A stretch of 64,000 nt of DNA, taken from positions 1 to 64,000 of the forward strand of contig JAHBWW010000002.1 of assembly GCA_019636795.1 (NCBI GenBank), given 5' to 3'. This document shows, piece by piece, positions 22,495-55,990 of this stretch. A model generated the notes under the pieces. The model searched no databases. It was not told where the DNA came from and worked only from the letters and a program-made list of their open reading frames with translations. The stretch comes from Phycisphaeraceae bacterium. GTDB taxonomy: Bacteria; Planctomycetota; Phycisphaerae; Phycisphaerales; UBA1924. Position numbers and translations under genes: made by a program. Within the stretch, counting starts at the first letter, position 1; every line of letters begins with the position of its first letter.

Positions 22495-22518
22495 TAATGG
22501 GCAGAGCCGGACTTGAAC
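22495..22518 (-). repeat. Left attachment site (24-bp tRNA-Phe 3' fragment)
   Basis: The 24 bases starting TAATGGGCAGAGCCGG are identical to 54945-54968. They comprise the 3' strand of the acceptor stem, the T arm 3' half and four flanking bases of tRNA-Phe. The rest of a tRNA is absent here, so this is a fragment left by site-specific integration. Confidence 0.92.
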
Positions 22519-24256: not shown

Positions 24257-24364
24257 TGATTGAAAGCAGTCGCTATTTTTAGCCCATGGATGCATTCATG
24301 GCGCATAATCGAATCACTAACTGGATTTCTGATTGAAATGAGCAGACTATTTAGCCTATGGATC
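24257..24364 (+). repeat. Duplicated promoter-and-start block before abiEi
   Basis: CTGATTGAAA..GCAG..CTATTT..AGCC.ATGGAT occurs twice, at about 24257-24292 and 24329-24364, with small gaps. The second copy ends on the ATG of the abiEi gene, with TATTTA (24348-24353) only five bases before it, implying a leaderless message. The first copy opens a 16-codon peptide that stops just before the second. Confidence 0.6.
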
Positions 24365-37151: not shown

Positions 37152-37260
37152 CCACCCAAGGTGATTTAAGCAGTCTAGGCGGGCGCGCGGAACTATCAGG
37201 CTGAAGCCGAAGACCGTCTGCGACGAACCCCAACACGCGACAGATTTCGGAGTACCAATT

Positions 37261-40200: not shown

Positions 40201-40422
40201 TCAATCCTCGATGCTGCGGCGTGTGATCCGCAGACGTCGCCGGCTCCACGCGGCGATTGGCACCACCAAGTTGTTGCAGTTGGAGCCGCTCACCTGCTCA
40301 CCGAGCAAAAGCGGATTGGTGGTCAGCTCGGCGGACGCTCGGGAGCACGCTTTCGTGTGTACGACCGACTGAATCGATGGGTACAGGAACAATCGGGCAC
40401 ACTCTTCGTTAGACGAACTTAA
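37261..40422 (+). CDS. SNF2-type helicase with N-terminal phospholipase D-like nuclease domain
   Basis: 1,053 aa. Residues 10-205 are a PLD-like domain with one clear HxK motif ('HPLHAKLYL' near 137) and 'GFLGSSNLTMPG' near 160, so a dimer would be needed for a nuclease site. Then come SF2 motifs: Walker A 'GDVVGLGKT' near 279, 'VIIDESHNLRN' near 349, 'MLSATPYNKS' near 382, and C-terminal 'LIATDVLSEGQNLQ' near 795 and 'RAGRVDRIGQ' near 826. SNF2/HepA helicases with PLD domains occur in DISARM- and BREX-like defence. Here the gene leads a tight operon with a small protein, a sigma-like protein and a DNA methyltransferase. Confidence 0.85.
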   Translation: MPRIFDNIETRLGDGLQEAVATASRADFCVGYFNMRGWKLLDGQIDHWTGSDDNCCRLLVGMHRTPEEAIRLLHSPTPVDEVVDQATARSLHKQIAEEFRRQLASGVPSNEDELGLRRLAGQLRSRRVRTKLFLRHPLHAKLYLCFRSDPTSPSIGFLGSSNLTMPGLLKQGELNVDVLDHDACVKLAKWFEDRWSDRFCIDISNELADIIDQSWATEKQLSPYLLYVKIAYHLCREAREGATLFNLPAAFRGLLFEYQAKAVQLAAQHLNRRGGVILGDVVGLGKTMMASALARMLEDDLGVETLILCPPKLRRMWDDYRQRFGLRATIVSIGQTQQLLPELRRHRLVIIDESHNLRNRQGSRYLAIREYLAQNEAKVIMLSATPYNKSYSDLASQLRLFVEPDQALPCQPERYVQEIGETEFIRRHQCRPNTLDGFEKSVHADDWRQLMQMYLVRRTRSFIRQHYAQLDTDAGREYLTLADGTRNYFPDRVPKVVKFECRENDSTDQYATLYSPGVVQALSTLHLPRYGLKNYLADPLPQGLTADEQRSIDGLSRAGQRMMGFCRVGLFKRLESSGGSFILSLERHILRNALAQHALDNGLPIPIGKSDFGEFDPSQSDGDAEPSLFGTDDDEPVETEPMDSEPRHPTRDFIRAKAAELYALYRDRYASRFRWLPSSIFTEDLKEHLRQDSDRLLAICDEVGPWQHTSDAKLNALFELLRTTHATEKVLVFTQYADTADYLVRELSRRGIADVSAATGNSSDDPTSLAYRFSPRSNQRRPGHDGSELRILIATDVLSEGQNLQDAHVVVNYDLPWAIIRLIQRAGRVDRIGQQSPIILCYSFLPAEGVDTIIRLRTRIRARLRQNAEVVGTDEAFFEDEAPETVIRDLYNERSGVLNDADGGETDLASYAYGIWKDAKEQDPSLERIIPSLPDVVYTAKTFPSDLMGPGAIVYIRTGDDIDALARLNTDGKIVSMSQRSILDAAACDPQTSPAPRGDWHHQVVAVGAAHLLTEQKRIGGQLGGRSGARFRVYDRLNRWVQEQSGTLFVRRT

Positions 40423-40438
40423 GCGGGCCATCGAGGAC

Positions 40439-40630
40439 GTGTACCGGTCGCCTCTTCGACCCGTAGCAACCGAGACGCTGAATCGCCAGCTCAAGAGTGG
40501 TATCAGCGATGAAGACCTCGCGCTGCTCGTTGTAGCGATGCGCGCTGAGGGTCGGCTGACTGTACCCGAAGACCAGCGCCGCGATCTCCAGCCCCGATTG
40601 ATTTGCTCGCTCGGACTCGTTCAAGGATAA
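40439..40630 (+). CDS. Small helical protein between helicase and sigma-like gene
   Basis: 63 aa, GTG start at 40439, 16 bases after the helicase stop. The sequence is predicted helical ('ATETLNRQLKSGISDEDLALLVVAMRAEGRLTV') with no cysteines or membrane segment. Its stop codon lies inside the Shine-Dalgarno (AAGGATAA) of the next gene, which suggests translational coupling and supports its being real. It may bridge the helicase and its partners. I do not recognise a family. Confidence 0.55.
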   Translation: MYRSPLRPVATETLNRQLKSGISDEDLALLVVAMRAEGRLTVPEDQRRDLQPRLICSLGLVQG

Positions 40631-40634
40631 GTCG

Positions 40635-42413
40635 TTGCAGTCAATCCGCGACCATCTTGCCCGGCACGACTTTCGCCTGCTCTTTATCGAAGAGCTAGGG
40701 TGGGACGCCGCGTCGGGCGAACTTGCCATTCAAGCCAACGGGACACCGATCTCGGTTAGGCGTGTTTCACACAAGCGCGGATTACAGGTGTTTGTCTGTG
40801 AACTGACCGCCGAACAACTCGTCGACCGCAAGTTGCTGCGGACCGTCGAGTCCCAGGTCGTACTTCACGCGGCCGAGCACCTCGTCATCTACTACTCCAA
40901 ACAACTCGGCCAACAGTGCTGGCAGTGGGCCGCGACTGGACCCTCAGGCAAACGCTTGCGACACCGGGAACACCCGTTTACAAGTCGAATTCCGCCCGAC
41001 GGCGTTGTGGCCCGGATTCGATCCCTCGCTATCGCATTCGAGCATGAGGACTCGACAAGCCTCACCGATGTTTCCGCTCGGATGAAGGGGTCGTTCGACA
41101 ACGATGCGGAGTTCTCGACATTCTTCAGCGGTGCGCGGTGGCGGGCGCTTAGCGCGGCGTTGCATCGGAAGTGGACGGAGACCGGATCTGACAACGATCT
41201 CAACGCCTTCCTGACCATTCACCTGCCGCTGCTGCCATGGGCGGCAAAGAGGTTTGCGCCGCACCGCTTGGACCATGAGGATGCCGCACAGATCGGGTTC
41301 TTCGCGCTACGAAAGGCGGCGCAGAAGTTCAACCCCGACCACGGTGCCCAGTTCTCTACTTACGCATCCCGAGCCTTGATGCAGTGGATCGGGCGTGCTT
41401 CGCCTGCAATGACTGACATCGTCAAGTGTCGCAGTGGTCGATTTGCCATCTACCGCCAGTGTGAGCGACGAGCCGACCGACTGGCCGCACAATCCGGAGA
41501 GTGGAGAGCCTCGCGTTTCCTTGAGGTGCTGACCTACCGAAGGACGACCCAGAGTGCGAGCTTCTTCCGAGCGATACGCCACATTGACACCCTAGATGAC
41601 CCGAAGCACCCCTACAGGAGGATGCTGGAGCAGCGTCCTGACCCAGATCCGACGCCTATTGAAAAGATGATCCATGATGAGCGCATCGCCCGCATCCCAT
41701 TAGTTCTCGCCACGTTGCCAGCACGCGATGCCGCAATACTGCGGAAGCGGTTCGGCCTTGATGGAAGCGGGCAGGAGTCAACTTTGGCAGAAATAGGGAA
41801 CGCTCATGGCCTGACAAAGGAGCGAGTGCGCCAAGTTCTGATGCGAACCCTAAAGGATCTTCGGTCCTGCTTCGATGAGCCAACCGAACCGGAAGCAACT
41901 TACCGGCATCCTCTAGCTCGTAGTCATTGTCTGCCTGACAAGGCCAATCACCGACGTCACGCCGTGACCTCGCCGCAGACCGCTGCCACTTTCCAGACGG
42001 AGTCGACACCACGTCAGCCGAATCTCCCAGCGTTCGTTCAGCGACCCACGAGAGCGCTGGCGGCGCGACTGAATGCACCTGCGGTCATCAATGCGAACGC
42101 CGAGACGAAGCAAACTGCTGCTTCGACTGGGGTGTCCTTGCAGAGCGAGGGCGGTAGGATGCGCTCTGACCCAGTCCTGGAGCAGATCGAAAGTTCATCG
42201 CCGCAGCCATCTCCAGACATTCAACATGTGAAGCGAGCAGTCGCCGAAGCAACTCCTTACGGGGGAGCTCTGGTTTCTGAGATTATCATGACTCTGCGCC
42301 TTTCAGGCACGCGAATACGCACGACCCTCCACCATCTCGCTCGCTCCGGCGAAGTCGAGCGCGGCCCTGATCTTCGTTGGAAGCTTGCCGGCGCTGCGCA
42401 TCGCAGCAAGTAG
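40635..42413 (+). CDS. Sigma-70-like protein fused to the methyltransferase N-terminal domain
   Basis: 592 aa from a TTG start with AAGGAT six bases upstream. Residues 1-165 ('HDFRLLFIEELGWD', 'AAEHLVIY', 'IRSLAIAFEHEDSTSLTDVSARM') align by eye along their length with the start of the neighbouring DNA methyltransferase. Residues 195-257 are sigma region 2 ('HEDAAQIGFFALRKAAQKFNP', 'FSTYASRALMQWIGRA') and residues 350-412 sigma region 4 ('LPARDAAILRKRFGLDG', 'TLAEIGNAHGLTKERVRQVLMRTLKDLR'). Residues 520-588 look like a winged helix. A sigma factor inside a restriction-like operon with a shared targeting domain is unusual. It may steer RNA polymerase or sense phage transcription; both are inference. 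Confidence 0.8.
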   Translation: MQSIRDHLARHDFRLLFIEELGWDAASGELAIQANGTPISVRRVSHKRGLQVFVCELTAEQLVDRKLLRTVESQVVLHAAEHLVIYYSKQLGQQCWQWAATGPSGKRLRHREHPFTSRIPPDGVVARIRSLAIAFEHEDSTSLTDVSARMKGSFDNDAEFSTFFSGARWRALSAALHRKWTETGSDNDLNAFLTIHLPLLPWAAKRFAPHRLDHEDAAQIGFFALRKAAQKFNPDHGAQFSTYASRALMQWIGRASPAMTDIVKCRSGRFAIYRQCERRADRLAAQSGEWRASRFLEVLTYRRTTQSASFFRAIRHIDTLDDPKHPYRRMLEQRPDPDPTPIEKMIHDERIARIPLVLATLPARDAAILRKRFGLDGSGQESTLAEIGNAHGLTKERVRQVLMRTLKDLRSCFDEPTEPEATYRHPLARSHCLPDKANHRRHAVTSPQTAATFQTESTPRQPNLPAFVQRPTRALAARLNAPAVINANAETKQTAASTGVSLQSEGGRMRSDPVLEQIESSSPQPSPDIQHVKRAVAEATPYGGALVSEIIMTLRLSGTRIRTTLHHLARSGEVERGPDLRWKLAGAAHRSK

Positions 42414-42490
42414 CCCCCCAAGCCGACCCCTCCGTCCGCGACCGTACGTATTGCGGTCCCGGTTTAACCCCCGTTGTTTGGAACGACCCA

Positions 42491-45400
42491 ATGAGCAGGG
42501 ATATCCCCACCATGCGAGCATCAACCCCCGTCCTCGATCCAGCGGCCGCTCGCGTGCTCCTCAACGCTCACGACTTCCCGGCACTGTTTCGCGAGCACTT
42601 GGGATGGGACCGGCACGACCACACGATAGATATCCCCATCGCGGGAACGACATTCACTCTCTCCGCCATCGCCGAGAAGAAGGGCTTCGCAGTTTTCCTG
42701 TGCTCGCCCAACACTCGCGGCCGCGTGCCCGACCGGGCCACCCGCGATGCGATCGAGCGGTCGCTCGCCAAGACCGCCCACGAGCATCTACTCATCTTCG
42801 CGGACAAGGACCGCCGCCATCAGGTCTGGATGTGGGTTCGCCGCGTGCCCGGCAAGCCTGCCAGCCAGCGCTCCTACGACTGGTTCAAGGGGCAGACGAC
42901 CGGCCAGATTCTCCAGCGTGTGCTCCCGACGATGGCGATCGCGTTTGAGGAGGACGACGCCACAACCCTACCGGATGTCCGGGCACGCGTGGCGGTCGCC
43001 TTTGATGTCGAGAAGGTCACAAAGAAGTTCTTCGAGCGGTTCCAGAAGGAGCACGCGGCCTTTCACAAGTTCATTGCCGGCATCAAAGTCGTGGCCGACC
43101 GCGACTGGTACGCCTCGGTGATGCTCAACCGCTTGATGTTCTGTTACTTCATCCAAAAGAAGGGGCTGCTCGACGGCGACACCGACTACCTCCGCAACCG
43201 CCTCGCCAAACTCCAGACCACCAAGGGCAAGGACAAATTCTGGACCTTTTACCAGCACTTCCTGCTCCGGCTGTTCCACGAGGGTCTGAGCACGAAGCCC
43301 GCTCAGCGGTCGAAAGACCTCGACGCCCTCATCGGACGCATCCCCTATCTCAACGGTGGACTCTTCGACATCCACGAGATTGAGGAGCGGTACACCGACA
43401 TCGAGATCCCCGACAAGGCGTTCGAGCAGCTCTTCAAGTTCTTCGACGAGTACCGCTGGCATCTTGACGAGCGCCCGCTTCGCGACAACAACGAGATCAA
43501 CCCCGATGTTCTCGGTTACATCTTCGAGAAGTACATCAACCAGAAGCAGATGGGGGCGTACTACACCAAGGAAGACATCACCGGGTACATCTCCCAGAAC
43601 ACGATCATCCCCTTCATCCTCGACCAGGCCGCGGCCAACTGCACCATCGCGTTCGTCCCGCCCAACGCTCCGAACGGCGGCGGCTCCGTGTGGCGGCTCC
43701 TCCAGACCGACCCCGACCGCTACTTCTACGAGCCCGTCCGCCGCGGCGTCATCGATGATGCTGGCGCTGTCATCTCTCTGCCAAAGGAGATCGCGGCTGG
43801 CATTACCGACATCCCCAAGCGCGCCGGCTGGAACAAGCCCGCAGCGGAGCCGTTCGGTTTGCCGACGGAGACCTGGCGTGAGCATGTCGCCCGTCGAGAG
43901 CGGTGCCTGGAACTCCGCCGCAAGCTGGCTGCGGGTGAGGTTTCCACCGTCAACGACCTTGTGACGCTCAATCTCGACATTCGCCAGTTCGCCGGCGATG
44001 TCATCGACCAGAGCGAGGGGCCGGACCTGCTCCGGGCCGTTTGGAAGGCCGTGGAGTCGGTCACCGTCCTCGACCCCACGTGTGGCTCGGGAGCATTCCT
44101 CTTCGCGGCGCTCAGCATTCTGGAGCCTCTCTACGAAGCGTGCCTCGACCGAATGGGCGGTTTTCTCGATTCCCTCGCGCGTGACACGGCCGCGGCCGCC
44201 GAGGGCAAGGGACGGGCGCCCGCTCCGGACACGTTCGCGGACTTCAAGCGGATTCTGGACCGCGTGGCGGATCACCCGAACCGCCGCTACTTCATCCTGA
44301 AGTCGATCATTGTCAACAATCTCTACGGCGTCGACATCATGGAGGAGGCGTGCGAGATCTGCAAACTGCGGCTCTTCTTGAAGCTCGTAGCCCAGGTTGA
44401 AGAGGGTGCGATCGAGAAGATCGAGCCATTGCCGGACATCGACTTCAATATCCGCGCGGGCAACACGCTCGTTGGGTTTGCCACACTGGATGCAGTCCGG
44501 AAGTCCATGGAAGGTCGCTTTGATTTCGGCAAGGAGATCGCCCGCATCGAGACCCAGGCCGTTCAGGCCGCCGAGCAGTTCACTTTGTTTCGGCAGATGC
44601 AGACCTCTTTGACCACTGACTCCAAGGCGCTGTCGGCAGCCAAGGCAGGTGTGCGGGCTGCCCTCCAGTCCCTCAACGACGAACTCGACAAGTATCTCGC
44701 TTCTGAGTATGGAATCGACCCCGCGAAGTCTCGGGTCTTTGCCGCGTGGCAGAAGAATCACGAGCCCTTCCACTGGCTCGTGGACTTCTACGGAATCATG
44801 TCCTCAGGCGGCTTCAGCGTGATAGTGGGCAACCCACCGTGGATCGAGTACGCCAAAGTGCGCAAGGTGTATGAGGTACGCGGCTATCAGACCGAGAAGT
44901 GCGGCAACCTTCATGCCCTGTGTACGGAGAGGTGCATCGGGCTCTTACGTGATCGGGGCCGTATCAGCTTCATCGTTCAGCTACCGCTCGTGTCGTCCAG
45001 CCGCATGCAATCCGCTCGGCGATTGCTTAAGAGGTCAGCATCGATGCTGTGGACTGCGACCTTTGATGATCGACCAGGCAAGCTGTTCGACGGGCTGCAG
45101 CACTGCCGAAGCACCATCTTCATCGCGGAACGCACCAACGCGGAGTCTTCAGCGAGGGTCTTCGTTACCCGCTACCACCGCTGGCCGACGAGCAGCAGAC
45201 CGACACTTTTTCCTCAAGTGCAGTACGTCGAGACACCCAACTCCTTCGGTGTCATCGAGTGCTTTCCAAAGATATCCGGTCCATCCCACCTCGATGTTCT
45301 CCGACGACTTCACCGTACCTCGGCACTCGGCCTGGGACACCATGTCTCGAAACGGCCAGATGCGCCATTTGTCTTCTATCAGGAAGCTACCCAGTACTGG

Positions 45401-45886
45401 GTAAAGGCATCAGTTGGCGTGCCGTACTACAAGAAGAATGGCAAGCGCGGAGCGCCAGCGCACGGGAGATCCATGTCATTCTCGTCTGAACCGAGGGCTT
45501 ACGCCGCGATGGCCATCATGAACAGCTCGCTCTTCTACTTGTACTACGTGACGTTCAGCGACTGTTTCCACCTTAGCGACACTGTTGCGGCCAGTTTTCC
45601 CACAACGACTGCGTTCCTTGACGACCCTGACCTAACGTCCTTGGGTAAGGCGCTGCAGAAGGACATCGCTTCCAATGCAGAGAAGAAGACTATTCATACA
45701 AAGAGTGGAGACACCATCGAGTACGCCGAGTTCGCGTGTGTGAAGTCTCGGTCCCTTATCGATGCCATCGATCGTCGCCTTGGTCAGTTATATGATATTC
45801 CGCCTGACGAGATTGACACTGTCCTTGGCTTTGATGCGGGAATCCGAAACACTGAGCGTGACGATGGCGAAGAAGCATCAGAGTGA
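42491..45886 (+). CDS. Eco57I-type N6-adenine DNA methyltransferase (restriction/BREX-like)
   Basis: 1,131 aa from ATG 42491; ATG 42512 is equally possible. Residues 15-185 are the domain shared with the sigma-like protein ('LLNAHDFPALFREHLGWD', 'AHEHLLIFADKDRRHQVWMWV', 'TMAIAFEEDDATTLPDVRAR'). A helical region with 'LNRLMFCYFIQKKGLL' and 'DNNEINPDVLGYIFEKYINQKQMGAYYTKEDI' follows. Motif I 'LDPTCGSGAFLF' is near residue 528, and motif IV NPPW near 781 marks an amino-methyltransferase for adenine N6. The C-terminal third would be the target-recognition part. No obvious endonuclease motif is seen, so cleavage may rely on the PLD-SNF2 helicase. It modifies host DNA in a defence system. Confidence 0.87.
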   Translation: MSRDIPTMRASTPVLDPAAARVLLNAHDFPALFREHLGWDRHDHTIDIPIAGTTFTLSAIAEKKGFAVFLCSPNTRGRVPDRATRDAIERSLAKTAHEHLLIFADKDRRHQVWMWVRRVPGKPASQRSYDWFKGQTTGQILQRVLPTMAIAFEEDDATTLPDVRARVAVAFDVEKVTKKFFERFQKEHAAFHKFIAGIKVVADRDWYASVMLNRLMFCYFIQKKGLLDGDTDYLRNRLAKLQTTKGKDKFWTFYQHFLLRLFHEGLSTKPAQRSKDLDALIGRIPYLNGGLFDIHEIEERYTDIEIPDKAFEQLFKFFDEYRWHLDERPLRDNNEINPDVLGYIFEKYINQKQMGAYYTKEDITGYISQNTIIPFILDQAAANCTIAFVPPNAPNGGGSVWRLLQTDPDRYFYEPVRRGVIDDAGAVISLPKEIAAGITDIPKRAGWNKPAAEPFGLPTETWREHVARRERCLELRRKLAAGEVSTVNDLVTLNLDIRQFAGDVIDQSEGPDLLRAVWKAVESVTVLDPTCGSGAFLFAALSILEPLYEACLDRMGGFLDSLARDTAAAAEGKGRAPAPDTFADFKRILDRVADHPNRRYFILKSIIVNNLYGVDIMEEACEICKLRLFLKLVAQVEEGAIEKIEPLPDIDFNIRAGNTLVGFATLDAVRKSMEGRFDFGKEIARIETQAVQAAEQFTLFRQMQTSLTTDSKALSAAKAGVRAALQSLNDELDKYLASEYGIDPAKSRVFAAWQKNHEPFHWLVDFYGIMSSGGFSVIVGNPPWIEYAKVRKVYEVRGYQTEKCGNLHALCTERCIGLLRDRGRISFIVQLPLVSSSRMQSARRLLKRSASMLWTATFDDRPGKLFDGLQHCRSTIFIAERTNAESSARVFVTRYHRWPTSSRPTLFPQVQYVETPNSFGVIECFPKISGPSHLDVLRRLHRTSALGLGHHVSKRPDAPFVFYQEATQYWVKASVGVPYYKKNGKRGAPAHGRSMSFSSEPRAYAAMAIMNSSLFYLYYVTFSDCFHLSDTVAASFPTTTAFLDDPDLTSLGKALQKDIASNAEKKTIHTKSGDTIEYAEFACVKSRSLIDAIDRRLGQLYDIPPDEIDTVLGFDAGIRNTERDDGEEASE

Positions 45887-46544
45887 ATCGGCGGCGCGTA
45901 ATCGGTCGGCGCGGCATCAAGAACGTCGAGACGTGCAAGTCGTCAGTATCTCCCAAGCAGGACACCATGATTCAGAACAACCACAAGACGTCTCAACCGC
46001 TTTTGAGGCCCTCCTGGAGGAGGTCGAAGCCGAGGTCGATTTCGTGAATACCGTCGGCTCCCGGTCGTTCGAGGGCCGTGACTACGCCCGAGCCAAAGAG
46101 GCCCTTGCCCGCGCCGGAGTTCTGCTCGCATTCCGCGACAAGGTATCCGCACTGCGGGCGGAATGGCAGACCATCGCCGCCATCGCCGAGCAGGAAGAGG
46201 ATGAAGAGACCAAGGCGGAGCGTTGTAATCTCGGCCGGCTCCGCAACGGCCTGCGGACTCCCGAGGCCGCGTACCGCGAGCCCATCCTCCGTGTCCTCCA
46301 GAGCATGGGCGGCTCATGCAAGGCCGCCGACGTGCTGGAGAAGGTCGGCCAGATCATGAAGCCCAAGCTCCAGTCCGTGGACTTCGAGCCCCTCGCCTCC
46401 GGCCCCGACAATCCACGATGGCGGAATGCCGCCCAGTGGGCGAGGAACGCTATGGTGAAAGAGGGGTTGTTGAAGGGCGACTCGCCGCGTGGGGTATGGG
46501 AGATGACGGACATGGGCCAACGCGCTTTGTCCGCCTCCGTTTGA
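45864..46544 (+). CDS. Winged-helix protein resembling the Mrr N-terminal domain
   Basis: 226 aa from ATG 45864, overlapping the methyltransferase end by 23 bases. The first 35 residues are basic and disordered-looking. Residues 50-125 are helical with a possible coiled coil. Residues 140-222 are a winged helix ('REPILRVLQSMGGSCKAADVLEKVGQIM', 'NAAQWARNAMVKEGLLKGDSPRGVWEMTDMGQRAL') like the DNA-reading Mrr_N domain. It probably serves as specificity or accessory subunit for the overlapping methyltransferase. No catalytic residues are evident. Confidence 0.7.
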   Translation: MAKKHQSESAARNRSARHQERRDVQVVSISQAGHHDSEQPQDVSTAFEALLEEVEAEVDFVNTVGSRSFEGRDYARAKEALARAGVLLAFRDKVSALRAEWQTIAAIAEQEEDEETKAERCNLGRLRNGLRTPEAAYREPILRVLQSMGGSCKAADVLEKVGQIMKPKLQSVDFEPLASGPDNPRWRNAAQWARNAMVKEGLLKGDSPRGVWEMTDMGQRALSASV

Positions 46545-46580
46545 CCGGCGTCTAACTGGCCCAATCACTGGAGATCTCAG

Positions 46581-48134
46581 TTGCCCACAGTTGACGACTT
46601 CCTGGCGCGTGGCTTCTTTCCGAGGGAGTTGCCGCCTCCGTTCTCCACCACAACGTTTGCCGCTGCGGTAGCTGCGCACGGACCGCCGCCGAAACCAACG
46701 CCGAAGACTTCCAAGCTTTGCATCCACAATCTGGCGAGAGCCGGTTCGCTGAGACGCAAACTCGCGATCCCGAATCCAGTCCACTTCCACCGCATGACCG
46801 AGGCAATCGTGACCAACTGGGCGGCGATCGCAGCTCACATCAACGCTTCGACGTATTCGGTCAGCAAACCCACGGCCGCAGGCGTGACGAGGGCCGTTGT
46901 TCCAACGGCGATGTTTGACGACATGGAGACCGCACGGCACGCCATCCGCGCCCTTGCCCCCTATGTCGTGCGCAGCGACGTCAGTCAGTTCTACGGCTCG
47001 CTCTACACCCACTCTCTGCCCTGGGCCCTCCACACCAAGCCGGTTGGGAAAGCAAATCATGGCCGCACCCTCTTTGGCAATGTGCTTGATGAATGTGCCA
47101 GGAACATGCAGGACGGGCAGACCATCGGCGTGCCGATCGGGCCCGACACCTCCCTCGTGCTCGCAGAGATCGTCCTTTCAGCGGTTGACCAAGACGTACT
47201 CCGGAGTGCCCCGGGCACGCGAGCCTGTCGCCAGATCGATGACATAGAGATGAGCTCACCCGACCGGTCTTCAGCGGAATGGTTGCTCGGCGTGTTACAG
47301 CGGAGTCTGACCACATACGAGCTGTCGCTGAACCCCAAGAAGACCAAGGTCATTGAGCAGCCAAGCCCCTTTGCGGAACCGTGGATTCACGCCCTCAGAC
47401 GCTTCCGCTTCCGTCGCGGCGCGAGCTCGCAGAAGTTTGACCTGTTGGCTTTCTATGACCTCGTACTCCGTACAGCTGCGGAGTACCCGGATGGCGCCGT
47501 AGTGAAGTACTCGATGTCTCGGCTCCGCCCGATCCGCATCGACCCGAGCAACTGGCAGATTCACGAGAGGTTCCTCCACCAGGCGGTACTCGCTGAGCCC
47601 GGCGTCATGCCTGAAGCGCTCAGCCAACTTATCCGGTTTCAGGCCCTCGGGATGGTTCTGGATACCGCAGCCCTCTCCACCGTCATCGAAAGGCAAATCG
47701 TTCGTCACGCACCCCAAGGGCACGGGAACGACGTCGCTTGGGCGCTGTGGGCCACATTGGCGTTTGGCCTGCGGCTATCTGTAGACGCCACGGACGCGGC
47801 CAGAACCATGGACGACTCGGTCGTCGCGATGCTTTTGCTCGACGCAGAGGCCCAATGCTTGCTCCCTGGCCCAATACCGCCGACAGCTTGGGAGGACTTC
47901 ATGGCCACTTCAGAGCTGTACGGCGAGCAGTGGCTGGTGAGCTACGAGGCCAGGCTGAAGGGGTGGCGTGCGACCAAGGGTGGTGGCGACCACATTGCCG
48001 CAGACCCCAACTGGGCCTGGATGCGGGCGAATGGGGTTACGTTCTATCAACCAGTTGTGCGTCCCGTTCCTCCGCCCGTGAGCGCGGTGGCTTCACTCAT
48101 GGATCGGGATGGGCTCGGCTTCTCCCCTGCTTAG
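46581..48134 (+). CDS. Reverse transcriptase of the defence (DRT/UG/Abi-like) type
   Basis: 517 aa, TTG start with GGAGAT eight bases upstream. The opening 'FLARGFFPRELPPPFST', motif A 'RSDVSQFYGSLYTHSLPWALH' near residue 133, 'GQTIGVPIGPDTSLVLAEIVLSAVD' near 185, the catalytic pair in 'RQIDDIEM' near 217 and 'LSLNPKKTKVIE' near 250 define the polymerase. The x-x-DD motif has Gln where Tyr or Phe is usual. The C-terminal 230 residues are helical, as in UG/Abi enzymes. No maturase or endonuclease domain is present, arguing against a group II intron. Such proteins give phage immunity by making DNA; any partner RNA is not identified. It begins 36 bases after the Mrr_N-like gene. Confidence 0.82.
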   Translation: MPTVDDFLARGFFPRELPPPFSTTTFAAAVAAHGPPPKPTPKTSKLCIHNLARAGSLRRKLAIPNPVHFHRMTEAIVTNWAAIAAHINASTYSVSKPTAAGVTRAVVPTAMFDDMETARHAIRALAPYVVRSDVSQFYGSLYTHSLPWALHTKPVGKANHGRTLFGNVLDECARNMQDGQTIGVPIGPDTSLVLAEIVLSAVDQDVLRSAPGTRACRQIDDIEMSSPDRSSAEWLLGVLQRSLTTYELSLNPKKTKVIEQPSPFAEPWIHALRRFRFRRGASSQKFDLLAFYDLVLRTAAEYPDGAVVKYSMSRLRPIRIDPSNWQIHERFLHQAVLAEPGVMPEALSQLIRFQALGMVLDTAALSTVIERQIVRHAPQGHGNDVAWALWATLAFGLRLSVDATDAARTMDDSVVAMLLLDAEAQCLLPGPIPPTAWEDFMATSELYGEQWLVSYEARLKGWRATKGGGDHIAADPNWAWMRANGVTFYQPVVRPVPPPVSAVASLMDRDGLGFSPA

Positions 48135-48137
48135 GGC

Positions 48138-48930
48138 TGTTCGGGTGCGACGTAGCGAAATGGAGTTCGATCGTGTCCACATGCGTGCCGCGGCGATCCA
48201 GGATTCGCAGCGCGGTGAATGTGTCCGGAAACAACATCCCCGAAGCACATGGTCCGTCAGATAGTTTCGACGCATTGAAAAGCGGGTGAGCGCTGTCAGG
48301 TTCTGGCCGGGCCCCTCCAGCAGATCGAACATCTCGTCGCTGACCCGCGGCGAGTCGCTCACATCCAAGTGCGTGATTCGCTTCACCAACGGTGTGCCCG
48401 AGGCCGCGAAGCAGGCCCAGGTCCTCGTCCGAGGTTTCATTCCCGGCCTAGCCGATGCGGTGCAGGCTTGGGAGGGCCCGTTCGCTGTGCGCCTGGTCCA
48501 TCAATGCCCGGTGATTGAGGCCGCAGAAGCCGAGGTTCAGGGCCTCAAGGTTTATGAGCGCCGAGTCCTCGTGCCGCAGGAACTCGGTCGCGGTGGGGCC
48601 GAGATAGTTCTGTGCGACGCAGAGCCTGACGAGATGGCAGAGGCCCGTGCCGCGACTGAGCAGTAGACGGAGTGAGTCGCCGGAGAGCCTGTTGCGACGG
48701 AGTTTCAGGTCGTTGAGGATCGGCATCGCTTCGGGCTCGCAGAGCATCCGAACGCCCTCGTCGGTGACCTCCGACCAGCGGACCCACAGCTTCATGAGCC
48801 GGCTCAGGTGCAAGCCTGGTCGCGTGATGACCTCGATGCCCGAGTCATCCAGGCACGGCGCATCGACCACCAGCGAACGCAACGCGTCGAGCGGGCGGCC
48901 GTGTTGACGCAGCCGATTGCCCGAACGCCC
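48138..48930 (-). pseudogene. Decayed leucine-rich-repeat protein gene
   Basis: Two minus-strand fragments in different frames carry LRR-like text: 48930-48448 ('LHLSRLMKLWVRWSEVTDEGVRML', 'LNDLKLRRNRLSGDSLRLLL', 'LINLEALNLGFCGL') and about 48440-48138 ('VKRITHLDVSDSPRVSDEMFDLL', 'LTALTRFSMRRNYLTD'). A stop and frame change separate them, there is no start with a ribosome site, and a TGA at 48931 closes the upstream end. It looks like the remains of a planctomycete LRR gene that lost its function. It is the only minus-strand gene-like material in this half of the island. Confidence 0.5.
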
Positions 48931-49245
48931 TCATGTTGAGGCCAAGCGTTGCACACCTTCTTCCACCCGAAGCCCAATGAGTTCCGACGACCAACCCCAA
49001 TGCCAGCAGCCTAATCGACGCACTCGACCTCATGCTCATGCTCGAAACCCTCGGCCACGAGGCGGCGAGGGTCGGAGGGACACATTAGGCTGAGAGGGAC
49101 CGATCCAACAAAATCTAGCGCTCTGGGCGGGGTTTGAACAAGTTTCCTGATCGAGATAAACGTGTTCAGCCCAATCAAGATCATCCGCACGAAACCCTGA
49201 CGTGTGGTACCATACCTCCGGCTCGCGTGCTCGGAGGATTCTGCC

Positions 49246-49896
49246 ATGGTCGGGCGTTCAACATCGGGAAGCAAGCGCGGCGAAGCTCGGTCTCGGCCGG
49301 CATTTCGCATGTCAACCAACCCGGAGACCGATGCCAAAGGTGCACGACAGGTTGTCGTCGACTTCATGACGTCGATGCTCCTGCACGACATTCTCTTTGG
49401 CACCGCTCCCACACCAGGCCCCTGCCTGCACACCACAACTCTGCGGTTTGTTGAAGACTTTTTCGAGCGGATGCAGCCTCGCGACCCGGCTGAAGAACTG
49501 CTTGTCTCGCAGATGCTCATGGCTCATGCTCGCACGGTGCGGCTGACCATGATGGCTACGTCAGCCAGCGATCTCGACCACATCCGCATCCTCAACGAGC
49601 ACGCCGAGCGGGCGAGCAACACGTACCGCCGACTGATGCTGACCTTGACCGACTATCGCCGACCGGCCAAGCAAGGCGACACCATCACCGCCATTCAGCA
49701 GGCGAACTTCGCCTCGCAGCAGGTCGTGCTCAACGGGGACAGTCATGGAACGAAAAACACGACGAACGAACAAGGATGCGATGCCGGGCAAGCCGCGTCG
49801 CCCGTATCGCTTGAGTCCTCAGGGGCGCGCGTCCTTGCGGAATGCTGCCCTGAGCCGGCGGCCTTGGGAGCACTCGACCGGGCCGAAGTCGGCTGA
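49246..49896 (+). CDS. Hypothetical protein of the island backbone
   Basis: 216 aa from ATG 49246, chosen for GGAGG eight bases upstream. The protein is mostly helical ('AEELLVSQMLMAHARTVRLTMMATSASDLDHIRILNEHAERASNTYRRLMLTLTDYRR'), with no signal peptide and no recognised domain. The pattern of long amphipathic helices followed by a polar tail suggests a structural or DNA-bound accessory protein. It overlaps the next small gene by 152 bases in another frame, and the overlapping part is its low-complexity tail, so the C-terminal end is less certain. It begins the mobile-element backbone after the defence genes. Confidence 0.6.
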   Translation: MVGRSTSGSKRGEARSRPAFRMSTNPETDAKGARQVVVDFMTSMLLHDILFGTAPTPGPCLHTTTLRFVEDFFERMQPRDPAEELLVSQMLMAHARTVRLTMMATSASDLDHIRILNEHAERASNTYRRLMLTLTDYRRPAKQGDTITAIQQANFASQQVVLNGDSHGTKNTTNEQGCDAGQAASPVSLESSGARVLAECCPEPAALGALDRAEVG

Positions 49897-50077
49897 GGGC
49901 AAGGCCAGGAGCTGCATGAACGCGCTCAAACACGGCGAGCGGTCGGCTGAATTGGCAGAGCTGCGGCGAGAACTCACAGCGCTCCGCCGCTGTATCCGCG
50001 AAGACCTGGAACACCAGTGGGCGACGCTCCCTCAATGCTCTTTGTCCTTCGAGATTGACCCGCAATACGATGCCTGA
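49745..50077 (+). CDS. Small basic protein with STGPKSAEGKARS motif
   Basis: 110 aa. A very basic N-terminus (MERKTRRTNKDAMPGKPRRPYR) precedes 'EHSTGPKSAEGKARSCMNALKHG', a motif I recall from small proteins common in planctomycete genomes and often found beside mobile elements. The rest is one or two helices ('AELAELRRELTALRRCIREDLEHQWATL'). Function is unknown; DNA binding is plausible from the charge. It overlaps its neighbours' frames on both sides, which fits compact element backbones. Confidence 0.65.
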   Translation: MERKTRRTNKDAMPGKPRRPYRLSPQGRASLRNAALSRRPWEHSTGPKSAEGKARSCMNALKHGERSAELAELRRELTALRRCIREDLEHQWATLPQCSLSFEIDPQYDA

Positions 50078-50186
50078 ACACGGGTGTCGTCGGGATTCAT
50101 CGCTCGTTGAACGGAACGGTCTGGACGGCGGCACTCGCCTCTCGATTTGCCCAGACCTTCCGGCCCGAGGCAATGAAGGTGAAGCA

Positions 50187-51269
50187 ATGACTGATATGAG
50201 TGTTGATCAACGCAGGCGCAAGTGGATCCAGGTACTGCATCGCGCGTGCGAGGTCGCACGCGATCTGCTGGCAACACCCGAAGGGCAGGCTGCAATTGAC
50301 TGGTTCAATACCGAGTATTCCGAAGAGGCCGTCCGTCAGCGTCGGGAAGCAGTTGATGCCGACCGCAGTGCGGATCACTCACACCGATGGTCAGCGATGC
50401 AGATTTGCGGCACTGAGCTTGGCAAACCCGCTGAGGTCTGGCGGCTTTCGGCAGCACTGATTGACTTGTTTCACATCGATCCGAGATGGGGAAAAATTGA
50501 GGGTTGGAGCGATCGCGATACCGAGCGTCTGGAAGCCGCGAAAGTTGTGCTCCTCGTCGCCCTGGTGATAGACCGGGATGTTCACGAATATCTGGGAGAC
50601 AAGATCGACTTGGCGACGTTACCGAAAGGCCAGATAGGAGAGCAACTAGGCCGAGGATTCGCATCCATAAATGCTGGCTTCGACGACGGCGAGGGTCGAT
50701 GGCCAGAAATTGTGGAAGGTGCGGTCGATGTGCTCCGACCGAAATTGAGTCTGGAAGCAAATGACGACGAGGAAAGTAAAGACGAAGGGCGAATAGCGCA
50801 GGTGATTACGAAGGTCCCAGCTGAAATGCTGCGCAAGGACGCAAGTCCCGACCAAGAGACCAAACGAGAATTCGCGGTCTTGCGCGAGGGGGATGAGGCA
50901 TCTGGGATCACCGAGGGTACAGCTGATCCGGCTGAATGTGCATGTGGCGAATCTGAGGCCGCAAACAAAGAGATGAACGCAGAGCAACCCACGTCCCCAC
51001 CCCTTCACGATGGGGCTTACGTGATCGACGAACACGACCTGGCGCTGCTGGAGTTTCTCAATCGAATACCGAATATGCGTCGGAAGATTTCCGACGTGCT
51101 TCCTGACAATGGACCGCAAGACCGAAAGGCGGTGGCGAGTCGCCTTCGAAAGTTGGCCGACAGAACGCCCCCGCTGGTGGACTTTCCGAAGGGTGGTCGA
51201 ACGGGCGTGGCGATCCTGCCCGCTGGGGTGGAAGCGCTGCGACGTGCAACCGCGCCGACGCCCCACTAA
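50187..51269 (+). CDS. Hypothetical protein with C-terminal winged-helix-like region
   Basis: 360 aa from ATG 50187 (GAAGGTGAAGC before it); an upstream frame extension lacks similarity and overlaps the previous gene. Residues 1-200 are helical with 'KWIQVLHRACEVARDLLATPEGQAAIDWF' and 'LAAALIDLFHI'-like stretches. Residues 225-300 are acidic and probably disordered. Residues 305-355 ('LALLEFLNRIPNMRRKISDVLPDNGPQDRKAVASRLRKLA') look like a winged helix. I do not recognise a family. Its place before the excisionase-like genes suggests a role in element maintenance or control. Confidence 0.6.
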   Translation: MTDMSVDQRRRKWIQVLHRACEVARDLLATPEGQAAIDWFNTEYSEEAVRQRREAVDADRSADHSHRWSAMQICGTELGKPAEVWRLSAALIDLFHIDPRWGKIEGWSDRDTERLEAAKVVLLVALVIDRDVHEYLGDKIDLATLPKGQIGEQLGRGFASINAGFDDGEGRWPEIVEGAVDVLRPKLSLEANDDEESKDEGRIAQVITKVPAEMLRKDASPDQETKREFAVLREGDEASGITEGTADPAECACGESEAANKEMNAEQPTSPPLHDGAYVIDEHDLALLEFLNRIPNMRRKISDVLPDNGPQDRKAVASRLRKLADRTPPLVDFPKGGRTGVAILPAGVEALRRATAPTPH

Positions 51270-51341
51270 TGCCCCGCTAATGCCCCCTTATTGCCGCGCA
51301 AAATACCCACGGCAGAAGCGACCAATCCCTTTCGTTGGGGC

Positions 51342-51554
51342 ATGTCTCACGAAAACATAAAGCCAATGTACTTGGGAGCAATGGCCCGCCGGTTGCGCGT
51401 TCCGGCTAAGTGGCTGCGAGAAGAAGCCGAAGCGGGCCGCATCCCGCATCTGCGCGCGGGAAGTGTGCTGCTATTTGACCCTGAGGAAGTGGAGCGGATC
51501 GTGCTTGCTCGGCTGCGCGAATCGGCTCCACCGGAGAAAGGGGGTGTTCAGTGA
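51342..51554 (+). CDS. Excisionase-like small HTH protein
   Basis: 70 aa from ATG 51342. 'MYLGAMARRLRVPAKWLREEAEAGRIPHLRAGSVLLFDPEEVERIVLARL' is a MerR/Xis-type winged helix (HTH_17 class). Such proteins bend DNA at att sites for excision or control element genes. The next gene, of the same class, starts inside its stop codon (GTGA), so the two are co-translated. Confidence 0.7.
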   Translation: MSHENIKPMYLGAMARRLRVPAKWLREEAEAGRIPHLRAGSVLLFDPEEVERIVLARLRESAPPEKGGVQ

Positions 51555-51751
51555 GAAATGAGCATCCCACCATTCCCCCGCTGCTGGTTGACCGTCGTGA
51601 GGCGGCCAAACTCCTTTCAGTATCGCCCGGGACGATCGACAACCTCCGTCTCCGCGGCGAACTGCCGAGTCTGAAAATCGGCATGCGACGCCTCTACGAC
51701 GTCGAAGACCTCCGCCAGCTCATCGCGACTCGGAAGGAGGTGACAGAATGA
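51551..51751 (+). CDS. Excisionase-family helix-turn-helix protein
   Basis: 66 aa, GTG start overlapping the previous stop. 'LLVDRREAAKLLSVSPGTIDNLRLRGELPSLKIGMRRLYDVEDLRQLIATR' is a textbook HTH_17 excisionase fold. Two Xis-like proteins in tandem could give a recombination directionality factor plus a regulator. The stop overlaps the next gene start by 4 bases. Confidence 0.8.
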   Translation: MRNEHPTIPPLLVDRREAAKLLSVSPGTIDNLRLRGELPSLKIGMRRLYDVEDLRQLIATRKEVTE

Positions 51752-52104
51752 CCGCCAACGGCACATTCGCTTACAGGCCGCCCGACCCACCTCCGAGAAA
51801 CGACGCGGCCCCGCTGGCGGGCGGGGCTGGCGTCGAAGTCGAGAAATGGACTACTACTCCACATCATACACGCAAGCAATTCATTGAGTCCGCGCAGAGC
51901 GGTTCCCATTTCGAAGCATTCGATTCCGAGATGACAGCGGACACAGGGATCCGCCATATGTCAGCATCACTCGGCCGGGGCGTGCTACACGTTCAATGGC
52001 ATCCGGTCGAATGCGATCAGCGATTCCCGATACCCAACGCACATCAAGCGGTAGTCGCGGCGAGACGTGCTCGCGCTTTGCGAACGAATGGGGGTGCTGC
52101 ATGA
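51748..52104 (+). CDS. Hypothetical protein, translationally coupled
   Basis: 118 aa, coupled by 4-base overlaps to both neighbours (ATGA at each end), which is the main support. The sequence has a Pro-rich N-terminus and 'GVLHVQWHPVECDQRFPIPNAHQAVVAARRARALRTNGGAA' at the C-terminus. No domain, signal or membrane segment is recognised. Confidence 0.55.
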   Translation: MTANGTFAYRPPDPPPRNDAAPLAGGAGVEVEKWTTTPHHTRKQFIESAQSGSHFEAFDSEMTADTGIRHMSASLGRGVLHVQWHPVECDQRFPIPNAHQAVVAARRARALRTNGGAA

Positions 52105-53027
52105 ACCCATGGCAGCGCATGGACCAAGTGGCCAACACCCTCACGCGCAGTCCTGCGGAACGAGCTGTATTGCTCGCCGCATTGCGTTGGGCAAACAAGG
52201 ATGGAGAGCTTTGGCCTTCTGTGGAGTCCTGGGCAAAGATGGCTGGGCTGACTGAGCGTGGACTCAGAAAAGTTCTGAAGCGTCTCGTGGAGCGCGGACT
52301 GCTGGAGGTCGTTGGCACATCGATGGGTGGCCGCGGCAAGACGAACCGGTATCGGATCGTCTGCTTCGACAAGGCTGAGGTCAACCCTGAACGGGATTCA
52401 GGGTTGACCCCTGTGCCTCACAACATCAAACCCGGAACCGCGAGGCCAACAACCCTGAACGCAACGACACAAAACCCTGAACGGCGTTCAGGGGAACCAT
52501 CCATCCATCTCCCAGATGAACAACCAGACGAACCATCCACAACGCACACGATCGCAAAGCCGCCCAACGGAGTTGGTGAGGATGCACGCGCTGGCGCTGG
52601 GATGGGTGGATGGGTTGGACAGGCAGACCACGGAACGCGGTTGCGGTTGGATCGCAAGGAAGCAGGTGACTTTGGTCAGACGGAGCCGCCAGACGTACGG
52701 AGGCTGCTCGAACAGGCTGGCGTGAGGGGGCCAAACCTCGACATTTTAGCGAATGCAGCGGGCATCACGGCGCGTGTGGTCGAGGAAGAAACTCGGTCAT
52801 TGAGATCGGACCGCAACGTGCGGAATCTCCCCGCGGTGCTGGTCAAGCGGCTAGCTGCACGGGCGGGGATCAAACTCGCCGGGCGGCCACCATTGTCTAA
52901 GCAGGATCAGGCGAGCATCGCAAGACTAGAACAGTTGCGGAGATCGCATGGGGAGCAACGCGCACGCGACGCCAGCATTGGCGAAGCGGTGTGTGAAGTC
53001 ACGACCCGCTTGATCAGACCCGCATAG
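52101..53027 (+). CDS. Helix-turn-helix replication-initiator-like protein
   Basis: 308 aa from ATG 52101. Residues 1-75 form a winged helix of the HTH_36 type ('LLAALRWANKDGELWPSVESWAKMAGLTERGLRKVLKRLVERGLLEVV'), common in plasmid and phage replication or control proteins. Residues 95-140 are encoded by DNA holding palindromic AACCCTGAACG repeats. A low-complexity linker follows, and the last 90 residues are helical and basic. Embedded repeats inside an initiator-like gene are typical of origins where the protein binds its own coding DNA. Replication function is inferred, since there is no catalytic motif. Confidence 0.6.
   Translation: MNPWQRMDQVANTLTRSPAERAVLLAALRWANKDGELWPSVESWAKMAGLTERGLRKVLKRLVERGLLEVVGTSMGGRGKTNRYRIVCFDKAEVNPERDSGLTPVPHNIKPGTARPTTLNATTQNPERRSGEPSIHLPDEQPDEPSTTHTIAKPPNGVGEDARAGAGMGGWVGQADHGTRLRLDRKEAGDFGQTEPPDVRRLLEQAGVRGPNLDILANAAGITARVVEEETRSLRSDRNVRNLPAVLVKRLAARAGIKLAGRPPLSKQDQASIARLEQLRRSHGEQRARDASIGEAVCEVTTRLIRPA
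52381..52493 (+). repeat. Iteron-like palindromic repeats inside the HTH gene
   Basis: AACCCTGAACG occurs at 52383, 52451 and 52473. The first copy is part of a perfect inverted repeat with 11-bp arms (TCAACCCTGAA / TTCAGGGTTGA, 5-base spacer, 52381-52407). The third has 8-bp arms (CCCTGAAC / GTTCAGGG, 3-base spacer, 52475-52493). They lie in frame in the gene and translate to repeated NPERxSG. Confidence 0.85.
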
Positions 53028-53053
53028 CACCAGAATCGGAGGACAAAATGCTC

Positions 53054-53082
53054 TTGACATCACTAACGCCAAGCGTTATGAT
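53054..53082 (+). promoter_or_regulatory. HigBA promoter with operator in the spacer
   Basis: TTGACA (53054-53059), a 17-bp spacer and TATGAT (53077-53082) make a near-consensus promoter. The inverted repeat TAACGC-CAA-GCGTTA (53064-53078) fills the spacer, ideal for repression by HigA. The toxin ATG at 53090 is seven bases past the -10, so the message should be leaderless. Confidence 0.8.
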
Positions 53083-53089
53083 ACACTTC

Positions 53090-53371
53090 ATGATCGCCAG
53101 TTTCGCCGATCGCAACGCCGAAGCCCTGTTCCGACGCGAGCGAATCGCCCGGATGGATGCCCGACTCCAGCGTGTCGCACTGCGAAAACTGGTCATGCTC
53201 GATGCGGCGGCAACGCTGGATGATCTGCGCATTCCGCCCGGTAACCGACTCGAAGCGCTCAAGGGCGAACGCAAAGGACAGCACTCCATCCGAATCAACG
53301 ATCAATGGCGGATCGTCTTCGAGTGGAAAAACAACGCGGCGCACAACGTCGCAATCGTGGACTACCACTGA
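53090..53371 (+). CDS. higB: HigB-type (RelE superfamily) mRNA interferase toxin
   Basis: 93 aa from ATG 53090, the usual HigB length; the open frame upstream overlaps the promoter and is rejected. 'MIASFADRNAEALFRRERI' opens the family, and 'LRIPPGNRLEALKGERKGQHSIRINDQWRIVFEW' carries the conserved basic and aromatic residues used in ribosome-dependent mRNA cleavage. The toxin precedes the antitoxin by 10 bases, the reversed order typical of hig loci. It probably stabilises the island as an addiction module. Confidence 0.92.
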   Translation: MIASFADRNAEALFRRERIARMDARLQRVALRKLVMLDAAATLDDLRIPPGNRLEALKGERKGQHSIRINDQWRIVFEWKNNAAHNVAIVDYH

Positions 53372-53381
53372 GGATTCATCA

Positions 53382-53681
53382 ATGGCCAAGCGACACAAGC
53401 CCATTCATCCCGGCGAAATCCTGAACGCGGAGTTTCTCGAACCGCTAGGTCTGTCGCAGTATCGACTTGCCCAGCAAACCGGGATGCCCGCCGATCGCAT
53501 CGCCCGGCTGGTCAAGGGGACGCGAGCGTTCACGGCGGATACGGCCCTGCGGCTGGCCAGATTCTTCGGTACAAGCCCCGAGTTTTGGATGAACCTGCAG
53601 GCCCGCTACGACCTTGAAACTGCAATTGACGAACGCGGACGGGACATCGAACAGCAAGTCAAGCCGATGGATGCGGCGTGA
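53382..53681 (+). CDS. higA: HigA-type XRE antitoxin
   Basis: 99 aa. 'HPGEILNAEFLEPLGLSQYRLAQQTGMPADRIARLVKGTRAFTADTALRLARFFGTSPEFWMNLQARYDLE' is the XRE/VapI helix-turn-helix of HigA, which binds HigB and represses the promoter through the palindrome at 53064-53078. GAGGATTC supplies the ribosome site. The integrase gene begins 18 bases later, so some integrase mRNA may come from the hig promoter. Confidence 0.93.
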   Translation: MAKRHKPIHPGEILNAEFLEPLGLSQYRLAQQTGMPADRIARLVKGTRAFTADTALRLARFFGTSPEFWMNLQARYDLETAIDERGRDIEQQVKPMDAA

Positions 53682-53698
53682 AACGAAGGGAATAGCAC

Positions 53699-55009
53699 AT
53701 GGCAAGCATCGGACGCGAAGGCACGAAGGGCGAACTCAAACGCATCATCTTCCGCGACGCGAGCGGCAAGCAGAAAACCCTGAGGCTCGGCCCATGCTCC
53801 GAGAAGGCGGCCCAAAGCGCACTGGCCGGATTCGAGCGGGTGCTCGAAGCCCATCGCATCGGATCGACGATCCACCCCGATGGCGTGCGATGGCTCGAAG
53901 CAATCGACGATCGGCTGCATGAACGAGTCGCAAGGCTGGGGCTGTGCGAACCCCGCAAGGCGGCCGAAGCGTTGACGCTGGGCGGGATGCTGACGAAGTT
54001 CTTTGCGGGGGTGGACGTGAAGCCCGCGACGCTGGTCCGCATGAAACAGGCAGAGGCCGCTCTGCTGGAGCACTTCGGCGAAGATCGTGAACTCTCGAAG
54101 ATTGCCGGAGCCGATGCCGAGAAATGGCGTGCGGGCTTGAAGGCTGCTGAGTATGCCGATGCGACGATCAGCCGAACCGTTCTGTACGCGCGGCAGTTCT
54201 GGCGGTGGGGAATCAAGCGCGAACTTGTGCAACGCAACCCATTCGACGACGTGAAAGCGGGGTCGCAAGTCAACGCGAAGCGTTCTGTCTTCATCAGTCA
54301 GGAAGTCATCCAGAAGATAATCGACGCAGCCCCCGATGCCGAGTGGCGGCTGCTGATTGCACTTTCCAGATTCGGCGGCTTGCGGGTTCCGAGTGAAGCT
54401 CTGGCCCTCACGTGGAACGACGTGGACTGGTCACACAATCGGCTGACGGTGCGATCATCGAAGACTGAGCATCACGAAGGGCGGGCAACGCGGCATGTTC
54501 CAATCTTCCCCGAGATTCGAGAGCACTTGCAGGCGGTGTACGACGCGGCCCCCGAGGGATCGGTCTACGTCATCGGGCGGTATCGGGTGGGGTCCAACCT
54601 GAATCCGCACTTCCGACGGATCATCACGAGAGCGGGTGTCACCCCATGGCCCCGGACGTGGCACAATCTGCGGGCGAGCCGACAAACAGAACTTGCAGCG
54701 ACATTCCCCTTGCACACTGTCTGCGCGTGGATCGGCAACACGAAGGCGATTGCGGCGGGGCACTACCTGCAAGTCACGGATGCGGATTGGACACGGGCAA
54801 CAGGCGGGATCGAGGCGGCATCAAATCCGGCAACACACACGCCCCCAAGCGCGCGCACCGACACACACGTCGAAGCGGAAAACCCTGAAAATCCTGCGGT
54901 TTTGGTAGTGGGTGGTATCGTGTGTGACATACCTAACAACTACCTAATGGGCAGAGCCGGACTTGAACCGGCGACACCCGCATTTTCAGTGCGGTGCTCT
55001 ACCAACTGA
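53699..55009 (+). CDS. Tyrosine recombinase/integrase, reading into the tRNA
   Basis: 436 aa as it stands. Residues 85-175 are an SAM-like core-binding domain. The catalytic set is visible: Arg in 'SRFGGLRVPSE' near 228, Lys in 'VRSSKTEHHEG' near 257, HxxR in 'TWHNLRAS' near 321, and Tyr in 'AAGHYLQVT' near 357, with His/Trp 'HTVCAWIG' before it. The last 20 residues (MGRAGLEPATPAFSVRCSTN) come from the att site and tRNA-Phe read in antisense. In a circular form the frame would instead continue into the tail at 22519-22739. It inserts and, with a Xis-like partner, removes the island. Confidence 0.93.
   Translation: MASIGREGTKGELKRIIFRDASGKQKTLRLGPCSEKAAQSALAGFERVLEAHRIGSTIHPDGVRWLEAIDDRLHERVARLGLCEPRKAAEALTLGGMLTKFFAGVDVKPATLVRMKQAEAALLEHFGEDRELSKIAGADAEKWRAGLKAAEYADATISRTVLYARQFWRWGIKRELVQRNPFDDVKAGSQVNAKRSVFISQEVIQKIIDAAPDAEWRLLIALSRFGGLRVPSEALALTWNDVDWSHNRLTVRSSKTEHHEGRATRHVPIFPEIREHLQAVYDAAPEGSVYVIGRYRVGSNLNPHFRRIITRAGVTPWPRTWHNLRASRQTELAATFPLHTVCAWIGNTKAIAAGHYLQVTDADWTRATGGIEAASNPATHTPPSARTDTHVEAENPENPAVLVVGGIVCDIPNNYLMGRAGLEPATPAFSVRCSTN
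54945..54968 (-). repeat. Right attachment site (24 bp, tRNA-Phe 3' end)
   Basis: Identical over 24 bases to 22495-22518. It covers the 3' part of the tRNA plus the next four bases, the classic target of tyrosine integrases. Confidence 0.93.
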
Positions 55010-55020
55010 GCTATCTGCCC
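54948..55020 (-). tRNA. tRNA-Phe (anticodon GAA)
   Basis: 73 nt that fold into a complete cloverleaf: acceptor GGGCAGA/TCTGCCC with discriminator A, D arm GCTC..GAGC, anticodon arm CCGCA/TGCGG with loop CTGAAAA giving anticodon GAA, variable loop GTGTC and T arm GCCGG-TTCAAGT-CCGGC. CCA is not encoded. The island integrated at its 3' end and left it intact at this junction. Confidence 0.98.
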
Positions 55021-55137
55021 GGATTGTCAAACCCGCCCCCTCGGGCGAGTCACAAGAGTATGCCCTTCGATGCCCGCGTCAAATCAAACGGCGCAAGGCG
55101 GCGGTTGACACGCCCTGACGTTCTACCATGCCTATCC

Positions 55138-55977: not shown

Positions 55978-55990
55978 GGTTGACGCGAGA

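Follow-up and report, generated by a model that had tools for sequence, protein, structure and literature searches.

The window, by which we mean the whole 64,000-nucleotide stretch of Phycisphaeraceae bacterium DNA that was analysed, contains a reverse transcriptase (RT) gene within a likely integrative island, together with the following features (basis in brackets).

46581..48134, plus strand: DRT6-type reverse transcriptase, 517 aa, TTG start (ORF, profile, tree and predicted-fold evidence)
46570..46575, plus strand: GGAGAT, likely ribosome-binding site of the RT gene (sequence)
46977..47015, plus strand: motif A, D133-V-S-Q-F-Y138, and YTHS at residues 142-145 (translation, alignment)
47232..47243, plus strand: motif C, Q218-I219-D220-D221 (CAG ATC GAT GAC), in which Q218 is the odd residue (sequence, alignment)
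45762..46544, plus strand: gene with an Mrr_N domain, the upstream neighbour of the RT gene, with nothing so far tying it to the RT system (Pfam)
22495..22518, plus strand: 24-bp direct repeat at the left island end, a likely att site (own-genome search, repeat comparison)
54945..54968, plus strand: right 24-bp direct repeat, inside the 3' end of tRNA-Phe (repeat comparison, tRNA match)
54948-55020, minus strand: tRNA-Phe, overlapping the integrase gene
53699..55009, plus strand: tyrosine recombinase (phage integrase) at the right end of the island, overlapping tRNA-Phe (Pfam, tRNA position)
24358-26023: AbiE (AbiEi/AbiEii pair), island cargo
26033-30235: TmtA-like gene next after the AbiE pair, encoding a 1400-aa protein, island cargo
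31991-35664: Gabija pair (GajA, GajB), island cargo

The initial annotation had read an RT core, a YTHS motif and the string RQIDDIEM from the gene at 46581, and its position and letters proved correct: the 517-aa frame is intact, its TTG start aligns with residue 1 of a relative (L014), and the Pfam RVT_1 match was above the cut-off (30.6 vs 29.6 bits). Motif B is QTIGVPIGPDTS (residues 180-191), and the catalytic string, which includes Q218 and D220/D221, is C-R-Q-I-D-D-I-E-M. The aspartates D133, D220 and D221 are unchanged throughout a 12-row alignment of the RT and its relatives, the nearest of which shares 41% identity. Because two base changes separate TAT or TAC from CAG, a single read error is an unlikely source of Q218. 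A scan of positions 45700-48900 detected no terminators and no plus-strand promoters. Directly past the RT gene, at 48093-48882, minus-strand leucine-rich-repeat-like fragments are split over frames and by eye resemble a decayed gene. The genome has only one other RVT_1 match, a 346-aa protein with RYVDD that is encoded on a separate contig (L001, 1297-2334).

Profile, structure and tree comparisons agreed on the class of the enzyme. PADLOC Drt6 (PDLC03748) was the top profile, scoring 510.5 bits over residues 2-491, and Drt4 was the runner-up at 481.7 bits, a gap of 29 bits only; the NCBIfam Drt4 model (NF041749) gave 216.9 bits, far below its cut-off of 450. A phmmer search of the PDB placed 9wy8 at the top (E 2.6e-69), with DRT4/UG15 next. 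In an AlphaFold model built from ten rows (pLDDT 83.6, pTM 0.85), the pair of ten-residue blocks containing motif C had pLDDT values of 90 and 94, and the Foldseek rank 1 match of the model was again 9wy8, which bears the library title 'Cryo-EM structure of the hexameric DRT6' (TM 0.88/0.92). VIA-align superposed 490 residues of the model and 9wy8 at Z 42.0 and rmsd 2.0; the Z scores were 31.9 for DRT4, 26.2 for AbiK, 21.8 for Abi-P2 and just 14.7 for group II intron RTs. Structure prediction, which had been proposed as a check, thus supported the RT fold. In an 81-row tree, from which the trait column of motif C had been left out, the RT fell within a 24-row DRT6 clade that includes 9wy8 (SH-aLRT 97) and is apart from DRT4, AbiK, Abi-P2 and DRT3b; its closest company was a 7-row subclade (99) of same-phylum relatives and one prophage. 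A careful 25-row tree concurred, separating a 21-row DRT6 clade (100/98) from four outgroup rows and recovering the seven-row subclade (100/99). The DRT6 hallmarks, namely the triad D133, D220 and D221 and the YTH motif (Y142-T143-H144), are kept. The RT is of the DRT6 (UG12) type, an already-known class, and the profile score, the clade with 9wy8 and the fold match bear out the earlier proposal of a UG/DRT-type enzyme. Its value is that of a natural variant, and it does not amount to a novel type of system.

A search of the genome with the tRNA end uncovered a second copy of the tRNA edge at 22492-22518. The two sites, at 22495 and 54945, are identical over 24 bases, and positions 54000-55100 contain no further 24-mer that is repeated in the window; the repeats thus delimit a likely integrative element of 32.5 kb. 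We conclude that 22495-54968 is likely an integrative defence island in tRNA-Phe, which carries, besides the AbiE, TmtA-like and Gabija genes, a helicase/methyltransferase set and the DRT6 RT.

To our knowledge, the aromatic residue of motif C is near-universal among RTs; human TERT has LVDD at the corresponding place. The replacement of Y/F by Q in the window RT was confirmed by alignment (RQIDDI vs RYVDDF of 9wy8), and we determined how the position varies among relatives. Rows were classified by PADLOC for sample members and by tree position for the rest. Exact or contained duplicates, hits below 100 bits and one row with motif C missing (L022) were dropped before counting, and L050, a row with H whose gene is split over two frames, was retained. 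The 42 viral-contig loci had been chosen by a pattern round YTH and not by motif C, so the counts are not trait-selected. Motif C could be read in 79 distinct RTs, of which the window RT alone has Q before x-DD. The aromatic was lost in 8 of the 32 DRT4/DRT6 rows (Q, I, L, N, N, V, H, H) and in none of the 47 AbiK, Abi-P2, DRT3b, UG14 and UG30 rows (Y 44, F 3), an excess with a Fisher's exact p of 0.0004 when kinship is ignored. The DRT6 rows (n=23) comprise Y 15, F 4, H 1, I 1, L 1 and Q 1, and the DRT4 rows (n=9) Y 5, N 2, H 1 and V 1. Given that the aromatic is absent from four of the 23 DRT6 rows, the window RT counted, an aromatic before x-DD is usual in the class and does not define it.

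On the tree, at least five motif C changes were counted, every one of them within DRT4 and DRT6, which account for 47% of the tree length; the probability that all five would land there is about 0.02, a modest excess. The Q of the window RT and the I of L028 are separate on the tree, with a single origin not quite rejected (AU p 0.057), and a shared origin of the change in L033 and L048 is unsure because these are long branches that meet. The results show that the motif C aromatic has been lost repeatedly within the DRT4/DRT6 branch. Phylogeny had been suggested as a means of finding a clade in which Q is routine; it revealed recurrent loss of the aromatic, but Q itself occurs only once. No closer relative with Q was found with the Drt6 profile in overlapping samples of 392 (phylum), 397 (class), 163 (family) and 360 (order) genomes, nor in further overlapping searches of 12 genomes from the class of two relatives and, around the Bacillota relative L003, of 299 genomes of its phylum and 368 of its class. 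The plasmids searched contained no DNA-level relatives, and a plasmid search for more DRT4/DRT6 rows gave nothing new worth adding. The reviews and excerpts searched make no mention of a non-aromatic motif C in these classes, and we claim no priority. Two of the rows have peculiarities of their own: L028 (1483-3177), a DRT6 relative of the same bacterial family, has RIYDD, with the aromatic shifted one position later, and L050 (3686-5386), which encodes a DRT4-type RT with RHIDD on a viral contig, is probably broken, being split over two frames.

What the residue before x-DD does can be judged from two related enzymes. According to excerpts of the report on the AbiK-DNA structure, Tyr245 belongs to a group of aromatics stacked on nucleotides -2 to -4 of the product; the Y245A enzyme makes no long product, with short ones appearing late and in small amounts (PMC9508834). 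In the available portion of a preprint on DRT3b, the motif C counterpart Y276 contacts the 3'-terminal ribose, and F187, at +5 from the motif A aspartate D182, contacts the ribose of the incoming nucleotide (PMC13174585). These structures put the counterpart of Q218 on the 3' end of the growing DNA, and not on the incoming nucleotide as the initial annotation had it; from the Tyr245 and Y276 contacts, processivity and product length or sequence are a better guess than the change in dNTP choice that had been proposed for Gln. The window RT has an intact aromatic, Y138 at +5 from D133, that matches F187, and sugar selection is therefore expected to be normal. Since the counterparts touch the growing strand, Q218 would affect grip, processivity and product length, and perhaps sequence. 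By analogy, shorter or altered template-free DNA is expected, perhaps compensated elsewhere. AbiK is untemplated yet keeps and needs its Tyr, and the AbiK-clade rows L037 and L089 both have Y in motif C; hence the idea that an enzyme without a template has no need for Y is not the whole story.

Starting from what was observed here, namely the class, the predicted fold, the intact triad, the location in the island and the recurrent loss of the aromatic, we consider it quite probable that the gene encodes an antiviral RT of the DRT6 (UG12) type, carried as single-gene cargo of the tRNA-Phe island; the enzyme would act as a hexamer, make self-primed, template-free single-stranded DNA (ssDNA) and poison the cell, with Q218 shortening the product. 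Excerpts of reviews describe DRT4 as making random ssDNA without a template, and state that the phage protein ORF55 shields DRT4 ssDNA and activates DRT6 too, and that the DRT6 product is less resolved (PMC13213688; PMC13314766). The activity and the oligomer are inferred by analogy with DRT4/DRT6 and AbiK: the RT probably makes DNA without a template, may assemble as a hexamer, and would prime ssDNA synthesis from a residue of its own. Phage proteins as a trigger, stabilising the ssDNA, and the resulting poisoning of the infected cell are likewise conjectured from these relatives. Q218 amounts to the loss of the aromatic whose AbiK counterpart stacks on nascent DNA, and the product is expected to be shorter or made less processively. 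In the AbiK excerpts, priming is from Tyr44, in a finger loop (PMC9508834). The first Tyr of the window RT is Y92, so that a priming site of the AbiK type is absent; Y455 is kept in 20 of 21 DRT6 rows, and the clade has further conserved hydroxyl residues. An Rfam scan of positions 36000-56000, which covers described RNA families, gave a tRNA as its sole gathering-score match, and no conserved ncRNA or partner gene was found around the DRT6 RTs, the neighbours of which vary among the relatives examined. One could also envisage that the first residue of YxDD in DRT4/DRT6 is an evolutionary dial for the length or base make-up of template-free DNA, reset at least five times (Q, I, L/H, N/H, V), with Gln here yielding toxic DNA that is short or biased in sequence and differs from what the tyrosine enzymes make, an extension that we regard as rather unlikely.

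Other readings of Q218 were weighed against the same evidence. A decaying or inactive polymerase, riding in the island as a passenger, would agree with the lack of long products from AbiK Y245A in the excerpted report (PMC9508834) and with the fact that another non-aromatic row, L050, is a gene in two frames; however, the window RT has an intact frame and triad, departs only conservatively (F7, L141, L146, V257, W478, M481) from columns of at least 80% uniformity in the other DRT4/DRT6 rows, and preserves the remaining active site, with two base changes needed for Y to become Q, and we judge decay to be quite improbable. A direct change in the choice of incoming nucleotide, yielding a biased or protein-templated product, is unlikely. 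Gln might hydrogen-bond a base edge, and the DRT3b preprint, in the part available, reports that active-site protein side chains dictate the product sequence; yet base choice there is set by E22, R71 and R241 (PMC13174585), and the motif C Tyr of DRT3b and its AbiK counterpart lie, as described above, on the 3'-terminal ribose and on product nucleotides.

The third alternative, in which the RT serves the preceding helicase/methyltransferase operon as a functional effector, draws on the position of the gene, which lies on the same strand 36 nt past the Mrr_N gene; upstream of the latter are a type IIG-like methyltransferase gene, a sigma-like gene and a PLD/SNF2 helicase gene. The DRT6 relative L003 similarly sits 48 nt past a type ISP restriction enzyme gene, the sole restriction or clear defence gene in a Pfam scan of ten neighbour genes of DRT6 relatives. 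In contrast, helicase and related methyltransferase genes occur without an RT on Synechocystis, Picosynechococcus and Pelobacter plasmids, and an RT is likewise absent from a viral contig whose methyltransferase is 38% identical, so that none of these four homologous regions has an RT; the Mrr_N protein had no relatives in the plasmid set. Other DRT6 genes follow Gabija genes directly, on Rhizobium and Agrobacterium plasmids (L034, L035), or follow genes for which the scan gave no defence match. Given the RT-free methyltransferase loci and the DRT6 genes behind unrelated systems, we read the RT as independent cargo. The gene does lie directly behind the methyltransferase operon, as the initial annotation stated, but the RT probably does not belong to the methyltransferase system as the further module that had been suggested, and a function as its effector is very improbable. 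Within the set, the sigma-70-like (MzaA-like) protein encoded at 40635-42413 matches, with its first 160 residues, the N-terminus of a type IIG profile that also fits the adjacent enzyme, possibly a domain shared between the sigma factor and the methyltransferase system.

The observation of Q218 is sound, the class is already known, and the mechanism of the Gln is testable. Natural DRT4/DRT6 enzymes without the motif C aromatic are ready variants for probing the role of this residue in the absence of a template strand, and allow one to ask whether product length counts in phage defence.

Compared with known systems, the window RT shares with DRT3b its membership of the class 1 UG RTs and the YTH motif; DRT3b differs in retaining Y in all rows examined and in having DRT3a and an ncRNA as partners, according to the portion of PMC13174585 available, whereas the one other RVT_1 match of the window genome is on a separate contig. 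AbiK and Abi-P2, protein-primed and untemplated RTs, have the same kind of fold with a helical domain, but their motif C aromatic is Y in every row examined, and the Tyr44 priming of AbiK (PMC9508834, in excerpt) contrasts with the lack of a Tyr before Y92. DRT4/UG15 (9vdo, 9l9s, 21ou), a template-free ssDNA polymerase according to excerpts of PMC13213688, shares the architecture and likewise has N, V and H in motif C, but forms a clade apart from the window RT, which is far below the NCBIfam Drt4 cut-off. The closest likeness is to DRT6/UG12 (9wy8), with which the window RT shares the full-length fold of an RT and C-terminal helical domain (28% identity over 490 residues), the catalytic triad, the YTH motif and, probably, the single-gene organization, and from which it differs in its motif C string and in its location behind a helicase/methyltransferase set.
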